Source: Cryomorphaceae bacterium (GTDB taxonomy: Bacteria; Bacteroidota; Bacteroidia; Flavobacteriales; Schleiferiaceae). From it: a DNA stretch of 44,061 bases. The stretch lies in assembly GCA_022565745.1 (NCBI GenBank), contig JAIUMB010000002.1, positions 1 through 44,061 of the forward strand, in the 5' to 3' direction. The notes beneath the pieces were generated by a model, which was not told the DNA's origin, made no database searches, and saw only the letters and a list, made by a program, of their open reading frames with translations. The position numbers and the translations under genes were made by a program. Shown here piece after piece: positions 12,669-41,041 of this stretch (position 1 is its first letter; each line of letters begins with the position of its first letter).

Positions 12669-13462
12669 GACTTCTCAATGGGTTGCTTGGTTTGCGGATC
12701 GGTGAGTGTTTCCCCTTCTTGTATACGCCAAATTTTTACAGCTCGGACGAATTTGCTCCAGCCCGTATGACTGGCAGAGATGAATCCTCTTTTTCCATCC
12801 AGAAATCCCAATTTCAAAACGTAATCGCGAAAAAAGGCAAACCAAGGCTTAATAGTGAAATCCAAACAGCCCACACGGCGTGAATTGGCGCGATCAACCG
12901 CGGCCCAACTGGTGTAACGATCGGTTTTTCTTATCATCTCTGAAAATCCTCGATAGGTGTTGTGACCAATCACTCCATTTAGTTCACCAACAGTGCCGTT
13001 GCACTTTATTTCTGCGTGTACCCGCTTGTCTTCATACCGACATTTGTCGCGTTGAAACAGTCGAATGACCTTATCGTTTTTCCAACCGCCAAACCGCATG
13101 CGTTTGCCCATAAAGTGGTTGTGGCGCGGAATCCAAAACGCCGCTTCATTGGGATTGTTGGTTACGGTTTTTACGATGGTCTTTTGTGTGACCTCATCCA
13201 GCCATTCGTCGGCATCCAAAAGCACAATCCAAGGGTGTTTGGCTTGAGGTATGGCCCAGTTTTTTTGTGAAGCAGAATAGGCGTATTCCCTTTGAATAAT
13301 TCTGGCGCCCATGCGCTTGGCTATGTCAATTGTATTGTCGGAAGAATAGCTGTCCACCACCAATATGTCATCACAAAACTGAACCGACAGCAGCGCGCGT
13401 TCGATGTTGTCTTCTTCATTATAAGTTGGGATGATTGCCGTTATGGCCATTGGTGAATTCAT
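12665..13462 (-). CDS. Glycosyltransferase family 2 protein, WaaE-like
   Basis: ITAIIPTYNEEDNIERALLSVQFCDDILVVDSYSSDNT; WIVLLDADEWL; 4-bp overlap with the GT4 gene. Confidence 0.92.
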   Translation of the reverse strand: MNSPMAITAIIPTYNEEDNIERALLSVQFCDDILVVDSYSSDNTIDIAKRMGARIIQREYAYSASQKNWAIPQAKHPWIVLLDADEWLDEVTQKTIVKTVTNNPNEAAFWIPRHNHFMGKRMRFGGWKNDKVIRLFQRDKCRYEDKRVHAEIKCNGTVGELNGVIGHNTYRGFSEMIRKTDRYTSWAAVDRANSRRVGCLDFTIKPWFAFFRDYVLKLGFLDGKRGFISASHTGWSKFVRAVKIWRIQEGETLTDPQTKQPIEKS

Positions 13463-31408: not shown

Positions 31409-31471
31409 TGGTTGGGCTGTGTTTACTGAGTAATGCCAATGAAGACTATGATTTCACCCCTGTGAAGTCCA

Positions 31472-31546
31472 GCATCCCTACGTTGGCATTACCCAAATCA
31501 GGTTAAACGGGTATTTTCTCAGCCAATGCATTTTGGCACCCCGTGC
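31472..31546 (-). promoter_or_regulatory. TPP riboswitch aptamer (THI element)
   Basis: Minus strand GCACGGGGTGCCAAAATGCATTGGCTGAGAAAATACCCGTTTAACCTGATTTGGGTAATGCCAACGTAGGGATGC: contains GGGGTGCC, GGCTGAGAAAATACCC, AACCTGAT, GTAATGCCAACGTAGGGA. Confidence 0.96.
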
Positions 31547-31609
31547 GTTTGCAAATGTAAAATAGAGAGGCAAATCTATTGCCTGAATAGCTGCAAATAA
31601 TGGGTTAAA

Positions 31610-38154: not shown

Positions 38155-39045
38155 TTATTTATTGAGAATTTCTACAATTCTACTCAAGTCGTCGTCGCTG
38201 CTAAAGTTGATGGTCAGTTTTCCGCGACCGTTTTTGCTGCGCGTGATGTTGACCTTACTTCCCAAAAAGTTTTCCAATTGCTGACGAAGCTGTTTGTGCT
38301 CTTCGGGCAAATTAGGCGATTTACTCGACGATTTTTTACTGCTTGTTTTACTGCTTTTGGCTTGACGTACGAGCTCCTCCACTTGTCTTACCGACAAATC
38401 ATTGGAGACGATGTCTTTGTAAATATTGAGCTGATCGTCTTCGCTTTCGATGTTGACCAATGCTCTGGCGTGCCCCATGCCAATCATTTGATCGCGGATA
38501 CCGGCTTGAATGATGGGGGGGAGTTTTAGCAAGCGAAGGTAATTGGTTACTGTACTGCGTTTTTTGCCCACACGATCGCTCATTTCCTCTTGGGTAATGT
38601 CGCATTCGTCAATAAGGCGCTTATAACTGATGGCCACTTCTATGGCGTCCAAGTCTTGACGTTGGATGTTTTCAACCAAGGCCATTTCCAGCATGCCTTG
38701 GTCGTCGGCGAGTCTAACATAGGCTGGCACTTCTTCCAGTCCCGCCATTTTAGCAGCGCGCCATCTTCGTTCACCGGAAATCAGTTGAAAGTGGCCGTCT
38801 TCGCTTTTGCGTACAGTAATTGGCTGAATGATGCCCAACTGGGTAATCGAATTGGCCAATTCTTCCAGTTGTTCTCTGGCAAAGTGAATGCGCGGCTGGA
38901 AGGGATTGGGTTCGATGTCGTTGACATCAATCAACATGGTTCGGGAGATGACTTCCTTTGCCCCCGGGTCATTGGCCGATTGTGTGGCCGGGTCTTTGAG
39001 TAATGCCGAGAGACCTTTGCCTAATCCGGATTTTTTTGCGGCCAT
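38155..39045 (-). CDS. parB: Chromosome partitioning protein ParB
   Basis: GLGKGLSALL; IEPNPFQPR; LISGERRWRAAKMAGL; ALVENIQRQDLDAIEVA; MGHARAL. Confidence 0.96.
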   Translation of the reverse strand: MAAKKSGLGKGLSALLKDPATQSANDPGAKEVISRTMLIDVNDIEPNPFQPRIHFAREQLEELANSITQLGIIQPITVRKSEDGHFQLISGERRWRAAKMAGLEEVPAYVRLADDQGMLEMALVENIQRQDLDAIEVAISYKRLIDECDITQEEMSDRVGKKRSTVTNYLRLLKLPPIIQAGIRDQMIGMGHARALVNIESEDDQLNIYKDIVSNDLSVRQVEELVRQAKSSKTSSKKSSSKSPNLPEEHKQLRQQLENFLGSKVNITRSKNGRGKLTINFSSDDDLSRIVEILNK

Positions 39046-39048
39046 ATC

Positions 39049-39831
39049 TTACGCTTGAGGTTGGGTTTGGGGATTTTTTTTCAACAGTTCCTTGGCGAGT
39101 TTGAGGTAGTTAACCGCGCCTTTAGACGCTGCGTCGTACATAACGATACTCTCACCAAAACTGGGGGCTTCGCTCAGTCTTACATTGCGGTAAATCATGG
39201 TGTTAAAAACCATATCGCCAAAGTGATTGCGCACTTCTTCTACCACTTGATTCGACAGTCGCAAACGTTGGTCGTACATCGTCAAAAGCAAGCCTTCGAT
39301 GTCCAAATCCGGGTTGTGGAGGTTTTGTATGCTGCGGATGGTGTTGAGTAACTTTCCGAGACCTTCTAGTGCAAAGTATTCACACTGAATAGGAACCAAT
39401 ACGGAATCTGCCGCAGTAAGGGCATTGACGGTGATGAGTCCCAATGAAGGGGCGCAATCGATGAGAATAAAGTCGTATTCGTCTTTCAGCGGCTTAATCG
39501 CTTTGCGAAGCATGTACTCTCGACGTGGCTTGTCTACCAGTTCAATTTCTACGGCCACTAAGTCTACATGGGCAGCAATAACGTCCACATTGGGTGCAGA
39601 GCTTTTGAGAATAACCTCTTGAGGCTTATTCTCGTGCTCAATTACTTGATAGGTTCCCAAGGTGACGTTGTCGGGGTCTATGCCCAAGTTCGACGTTGCA
39701 TTGGCTTGCGGATCGGCATCGATGATGAGCACCTTTTTTTCCAGTACCCCAAGGCTTGCCGCCAAGTTAACAGAGGTTGTTGTTTTTCCTACACCACCCT
39801 TTTGGTTGGCAATTGCAATAATTTTTCCCAT
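39049..39831 (-). CDS. parA: Chromosome partitioning ATPase ParA
   Basis: MGKIIAIANQKGGVGKTTTSVNLAASL; IDADPQANATSNLG; LIDCAPSLGLITVNAL. Confidence 0.97.
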   Translation of the reverse strand: MGKIIAIANQKGGVGKTTTSVNLAASLGVLEKKVLIIDADPQANATSNLGIDPDNVTLGTYQVIEHENKPQEVILKSSAPNVDVIAAHVDLVAVEIELVDKPRREYMLRKAIKPLKDEYDFILIDCAPSLGLITVNALTAADSVLVPIQCEYFALEGLGKLLNTIRSIQNLHNPDLDIEGLLLTMYDQRLRLSNQVVEEVRNHFGDMVFNTMIYRNVRLSEAPSFGESIVMYDAASKGAVNYLKLAKELLKKNPQTQPQA

Positions 39832-40021: not shown

Positions 40022-40372
40022 TTACAATTCGTCAAATTCCGGTCCGGAAAAATCTGTTGATGGTTCTACCTTTTGGAAATTGGGGTCGTGGCGCTCAGAT
40101 ATGACTTCTTCGCCTTTTTCGTTGATGATAAAGTCGGTGGCATCTTTGAGCATGTCGATAAAGCCTTGGAAATCTTCTTTGTAAAGATAGATTTTGTGCT
40201 TTTTGAAATAAGGTTCACCGTTGTCATTAAAAAACTTTTTACTCTCGGTGATGGTCAAGTAATAGTCGTCGGCTCTGGTGGATCGCACGTCAAAAAAATA
40301 GGTGCGTCTTCCTGCGCGAAGCACATTTGCGTAAATGTCTTCCTGTTCGTGGTTGTTGTCAAATTCGCTCAT
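40022..40372 (-). CDS. PUR family DNA/RNA-binding protein (DUF3276)
   Basis: IYANVLRAGRRTYFFDVRSTRADDYYLTITESKKFF...GEPYFKKHKIYLYKEDFQGFIDML. Confidence 0.9.
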   Translation of the reverse strand: MSEFDNNHEQEDIYANVLRAGRRTYFFDVRSTRADDYYLTITESKKFFNDNGEPYFKKHKIYLYKEDFQGFIDMLKDATDFIINEKGEEVISERHDPNFQKVEPSTDFSGPEFDEL

Positions 40373-40382
40373 ACGTCACAAA

Positions 40383-41041
40383 TCATAAGGTTGGGTCAAT
40401 TGGTAAGGCAAAAATATTACTTAAAGGTTTGTCTGCAAAATATATTTTCGGGGTGAGGGGATGAGGAGGGTTTTTGTTCGCTTCGCTCACGGTTTTGTTA
40501 CACAATAAGGTGCTGTCATATGTGCGAAGTTTGTCGTATTCAAGATGAAGCATTATAATCGGAACTGCCAATTGTGAAGCGATGGTCTCTTTAAAATTGG
40601 GCATAATGCTGTCAATTTCATTGTATATTTTCCCAAGATTAGCGCCTCCTATTTTCGAAAGAAACTGCTTAAAATCATTGGCATTTAATGATATTAACTC
40701 AGCGTTTTCTCCATCGATTAGCGTTAAATTTACATTCCAAACGATGTGATCAAAAATGAATCCCGAAGTACTATGCTGCACCAAAGGCGCAAAAACCGAA
40801 TCAAAACTTGAGTCCGCTCCAAAAAGGATGATTTTATTCAAAATCGACGCGGAGGGGTTTTTTGAACCGGAGCTAACCAGTTGTTAGTGAGGATTCAAAA
40901 ATCTACCGACAAGGAAGATTTTGGCAGAAAGGGACTTTTTGGAGCAGACTCAAACTTGAAATTTCTATAGTATCCATTTGGCCATGAGTTTTTTACAAAA
41001 CTCAATGTGGCCAAGCTGATCAAAAATAAATATTTTTTCAT
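40383..41041 (-). pseudogene. Decayed secreted-protein gene, split by a MITE-like element and a -1/+1 homopolymer frameshift
   Basis: 5' piece ATG 41041 MKKYLFLISLATLSFVK; removal of 40804-40809 plus 40810-40951 joins it to SSFDSVFAPLVQHSTSGFIFDHIVWNVNLTLIDGENAEL...; one A must be removed from A6 tract to join frames. Confidence 0.8.
40810..40951. mobile_element. 142-bp MITE-like element with 17-bp TIRs
   Basis: Left end GAGTCCGCTCCAAAAAG; right end CTTTTTGGAGCAGACTC (16/17 complementary); flanked by direct AAACTT at 40804-40809 and 40952-40957; no transposase ORF. Confidence 0.82.

Follow-up and report, generated by a model that had tools for sequence, protein, structure and literature searches.

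A new family of non-coding MITEs with ends shared across Bacteroidota, one copy of which interrupts a hydrolase gene remnant in a Cryomorphaceae bacterium

The window, which is the whole stretch of 44,061 nt that was analysed, contains an intact DUF3276 gene on the minus strand (40022-40372; PF11680, E=1.3e-45). Next to it lies a gene remnant (40503-40809, minus strand), which by homology corresponds to the N-terminal approximately 100 aa of a PGAP1-like alpha/beta-hydrolase that is secreted and carries a T9SS sorting tail. This remnant matches G004 C173 at 41% over 103 aa and C209 at 81% over 74 aa, and the intact homologue on C173 is 1,550 aa long and displays both the PGAP1-like hydrolase region and the T9SS sorting tail in Pfam (PF07819 and PF18962). 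The homology to the hydrolase stops after about 100 residues, and the last approximately 23 codons of the host reading frame originate from the region upstream of the DUF3276 gene. This 3' part (40383-40457, minus strand) is a conserved region with a 78% match to G001:C34, where a DUF3276-like reading frame follows it directly. On the other side of the element described below, at 40958-41041 on the minus strand, a 5' remnant of the hydrolase gene encodes the signal-peptide-like MKKYLFLISLATLSFV; three-frame translation shows that its frame differs from that of GQMDTIEISS. A second remnant fragment of the hydrolase gene is found elsewhere in the same genome (G000:C137:5615-5743, L044; 43 aa, 81% identity). 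Adjacent genes for a ParA-like ATPase and ParB are located near the element (38155-39831, minus strand), and the window also contains a TPP riboswitch at 31458-31553 on the minus strand, which at 71.8 bits is above the Rfam gathering score.

The hydrolase remnants are separated by an element of 142 bp (40810-40951) situated between two exact copies of AAACTT (40804-40809 and 40952-40957). It has 17-bp terminal inverted repeats, GAGTCYGCTCCAAAAAG, which read GAGTCCGCTCCAAAAAG at 40810-40826 on the plus strand and GAGTCTGCTCCAAAAAG at 40935-40951 on the minus strand, with one mismatch between them. The inverted repeats, the 142-bp segment and the abutting hexamers were all found at the positions given in the initial annotation. 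When up to three mismatches are allowed, the inverted repeat occurs at two places in the 44,061-nt window, which are the two ends of the element, while 0.18 occurrences are expected by chance. These ends are found in the own genome (G000), in G003, G004 and G020, and in 26 assemblies. The non-coding core (40827-40934) contains a nested palindrome (minus-strand TTTTTGAATCCTCACTAACAACTGGTTAGCTCCGGTTCAAAAA), as seen both from folding of the element and from the consensus sequence and consensus structure of the 142-bp class, computed from 56 G004 copies. The minus strand of the entire element is predicted to fold as RNA into a single long hairpin with an energy of -51.3 kcal/mol (z -7.1 compared to shuffled sequences).

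On the minus strand the frame flanking the element reads MDTIEISS | FDSVFAPLVQ... It had been proposed that excision of the element restores a broken reading frame, and locally this is the case. GQMDTIEISS joined to FDSVFAP across the insertion site aligns with GQVDTVEISGYDSLFAP of the intact homologue, the proteins being colinear, and also with TDTVNVSSFDSVFAP of L049, a remnant that is not interrupted. The latter locus belongs to a genome of the same genus and represents an empty-site homologue, AATCAAAACTTGAGACATTTACC, of the kind the initial annotation had suggested for sister strains. It is itself a gene remnant, and its flank past the site can be aligned at the protein level only. Functionally the proposal needs qualifying, since the host gene has been truncated and frameshifted and is a relic; a working gene would thus not be regained by excision. 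The gene originally started elsewhere than at the ATG that had been named, and what extends to 40383 is an ORF left over from a much longer gene.

Copies at other sites and with other 6-bp flanks, which had been anticipated, are present both in the own genome and in its relatives. The own genome (a 2.35 Mb draft) contains three more copies or fragments, each at another site: one copy of approximately 130 bp, one 55-bp copy with AGTTTT on both flanks, and one fragment. Five genomes of the genus were compared; G003 has several copies, while G004 (JAFIEY01, 'Cryomorphaceae bacterium coassembly_bin.80', about 4 Mb; contig C77 is JAFIEY010000082.1, L265) has very many. A degenerate 17-mer finds 594 exact ends in the approximately 4 Mb of G004, compared to 0 for the reversed control pattern; of 298 genomes of the order, most have none. 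The 1.67 Mb of G004 examined contain 215 whole elements, mostly of the discrete lengths 142, 136, 131, 125, and 55 bp. Together they fill 25 kb, or about 1.5%, which is not an unbiased genome average since many of the fetched contigs were picked because they carry copies. In the genus of G020 the 142- and 55-bp spacings are kept, while the ends have diverged. Several G004 contigs, for instance C13, C66, C75, and C176, start or finish with approximately 141 bp of the MITE, indicating that the elements break short-read assembly. An identical partial MITE with the identical flank aatatgtt is found at positions 13453 and 15250 of L075, 1.8 kb apart, and at 6831 of L171; this is a larger duplicated unit carrying a MITE fragment.

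Exact 6-bp target duplications surround 105 of the 215 G004 elements, while 3.1 (maximum 10) are expected when the pairing of flanks is shuffled, and duplications of 5 or 7 bp are rare. About half of the elements are without an exact duplication, as expected of older copies. The 105 exact duplications have the consensus AWNNWT, to which AAACTT in the window conforms. A nested insertion was found in L057 (16590-16869), where an inner 142-bp copy lies within an outer copy and AAGTGA is duplicated around the inner one; intact copies of the 125-bp class contain this target once. Insertion is thus shown directly by the nested copy and by the empty-site homologue. Nearly all G004 elements are intergenic, and abutting open frames flank only five of 190, compared to 57% of random points. 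The element belongs to a genuine and new MITE family: it is shorter than 500 bp (classes of 55-142 bp), has no transposase ORF, carries terminal inverted repeats and a constant 6-bp target duplication, and is found at unrelated sites. A search of the literature by the end sequence gave nothing relevant, and no name for the family was found there.

The best explanation for the locus, in which we have high confidence, is that a non-coding MITE inserted here by transposition and that the target was duplicated. The duplication would result from a 6-bp staggered cut at insertion. The element was likely moved in trans by a DDE transposase, which would recognize GAGTCYRCTCYRAAAAG and prefer AWNNWT targets. 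Loss of internal sequence between short repeats of the hairpin probably gave rise to the size classes. Among the 142-, 136-, 131-, and 125-bp classes, differences of 6 bp and 11 bp occur in free combination, and in the 55-bp class TCTTCC is fused to CCTTTTT at a place with short direct repeats. The G004 copies also vary at their ends, with a C-G pair at position 11 in 105 copies and T-A in 76, and with wobbles at positions 6 and 7 (196 T.G and 189 G.T). Subfamilies are set apart by the paired change at position 11, for which the specificity of the enzyme or pairing within the hairpin may be the cause.

This variation could also be read as a sign that the element is maintained for a function as an RNA or DNA hairpin, such as a terminator, an RNase III site or an sRNA, with the transposon-like ends being secondary. 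Roles of this kind have been proposed for Correia or ERIC elements. The strong fold of the whole element (z -5 to -7), the covariation at position 11 together with the wobbles at positions 6 and 7, and the intergenic bias all agree with such a function. However, transposition is shown by target duplications and nested insertions, and terminal inverted repeats will fold whatever the function. The end variants are found at the subfamily level, so that the covariation may stem from a single event. Furthermore, convergent, tandem, and divergent gene arrangements are not markedly preferred beyond random intergenic points, and the element matches no Rfam family. We therefore regard a primary hairpin function as improbable, while the predicted hairpin, when transcribed, could affect the mRNA ends of neighbouring genes. 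REP/RAYT-type elements are also palindromic, intergenic and present in high copy number, but such families are moved by a tyrosine (Y1) transposase without target duplication, and the 6-bp duplications and symmetric 17-bp ends seen here are not among their features; movement by a Y1 instead of a DDE enzyme is accordingly very hard to credit. That an unrelated palindrome came to lie beside a 6-bp repeat by chance, with fortuitous restoration of the frame, is refuted by the hundreds of copies that share their ends and length, and by the matching empty site.

The distribution of the ends was studied by scanning the GTDB species genomes (264 billion bases) with the end variant TGAGTCYGCTCCGAAAAG. 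At least 116 stretches were found, nearly all from Bacteroidota, while for an 18-mer with a single twofold position a database of this size is estimated to give about 15 chance matches. At least 74 MITE-sized elements were identified in 26 assemblies, again nearly all Bacteroidota (80 loci among the matches listed). Among the matches listed, exact 6-bp duplications of the form A....T flank at least 33 of these 74 elements, from 17 assemblies. The lengths are lineage-specific among the matches listed, with 161-180 bp in Saprospiraceae, 129 bp in several Bacteroidales and 142, 125, and 55 bp in the family of the window, and the cores are mostly unrelated between assemblies; the family of the window and one element of Marinilabilia are among the exceptions. 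Exact matches to the ends are found in 12 of 393 sampled genomes of the phylum, so the distribution is patchy. Three loci of the Saprospiraceae assembly JALVCY01 (L218, L222, and L226) contain clusters of MITEs that are apparently nested, each with separate 6-bp duplications.

The Correia/NEMIS elements of Neisseria are approximately 100-160 bp long and occur as size classes with conserved ends in hundreds of copies; their target duplication is TA. Compared by description only, the present family resembles them in size classes, conserved ends and copy number, while the ends and the TA duplication differ. Bacterial MITEs are well known, large bursts in Bacteroidota included (PMC9769881), and 711 ERIC copies have been reported in Photorhabdus (PMC10969869). 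Type II bacterial MITEs, in which homology is confined to the ends, share with this family a length below 500 bp, terminal inverted repeats, target duplications, the hairpin, the intergenic position, the absence of an ORF, and cores that are unrelated between lineages (reviewed in PMC10969869); here, however, no parental IS was found, and the ends are common to families of a whole phylum. MITECca01 of Cardinium, also Bacteroidota, is present in 169 mostly intergenic copies that make up 3.5% of the chromosome, and derives from the IS982 element ISCca4 (PMC9769881). Compared by description, it is likewise a lineage-specific, mostly intergenic burst, but with a known IS982 parent where none was found here. 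BrickBuilt, MITE239, MITE464, and MITE700 of Porphyromonas gingivalis have the ends GAGACCTTCGCA or ACGTCAGTTCGA, which match IS5-family ISPg elements, and their target duplications are irregular (PMC4596501). These are Bacteroidota elements too and some of their ends start with GAG, but the published inverted repeats of BrickBuilt, MITE464, and MITE239 differ from GAGTCYGCTCCAAAAAG (PMC4596501). What is unusual about the present family is the phylum-wide ends on elements with unrelated cores, and the absent parent. The result is one more known MITE family, whose ends have been conserved over much of a phylum; the element accounts for the broken ORF in the window, and the family for numerous breaks in the assemblies of these genomes.

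Searches of 1.67 Mb of G004, of 80 loci elsewhere, and of viral contigs, plasmids, and phages gave no transposase with these ends, the last three having no match to the ends at all. Nor did the DNA searched contain a full-length IS with matching ends. PF01609 (DDE_Tnp_1) matches are present in G004, G571, G568, G378, G620, and G653, but none adjoin located ends. The G004 transposases of this type lack matching ends nearby and are surrounded by inverted repeats unlike the ends, and derivation from an IS4/IS5/IS1634-type element (DDE_Tnp_1, PF01609) was rejected, as no transposase of this family in these genomes was flanked by the ends located there. A PF13612 (IS982) transposase was not found in the own genome. 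A pair of ends spanning 1431 bp in L057 turned out to belong to two partial MITEs, separate from each other, with an ordinary gene in between, and the ends in G571 and G568 pair at 119-169 bp, which again is MITE-sized. Among end pairs 0.5-4.5 kb apart, matching 6-mers were found only in L222; this 777-bp pair has no ORF above 79 aa and is probably a nested MITE cluster. Mobilization in trans, as the initial annotation had suggested for a non-autonomous element, fits with these results since no copy encodes a transposase, and is inferred by exclusion because an autonomous element with these ends was not found. It is conceivable, though we consider it rather unlikely, that the shared ends GAGTCYRCTCYRAAAAG and the 6-bp AWNNWT duplications on Bacteroidota MITEs with unrelated cores mark an undescribed transposase family, whose enzyme may be encoded away from any ends and serve MITEs purely in trans. 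Since the ends and the target preference are now described and genomes rich in copies have been identified, the missing transposase is a concrete target. In G661, from the same phylum, the ends GAGTCTGCTCTAAAAAG and GAGTTCACTCTAAAAAG occur about 49 times, in most cases some 30-50 bp away from the end of a contig, and a single pair lies at MITE distance; this pattern may indicate a long, recently multiplied autonomous parent that breaks the assembly.
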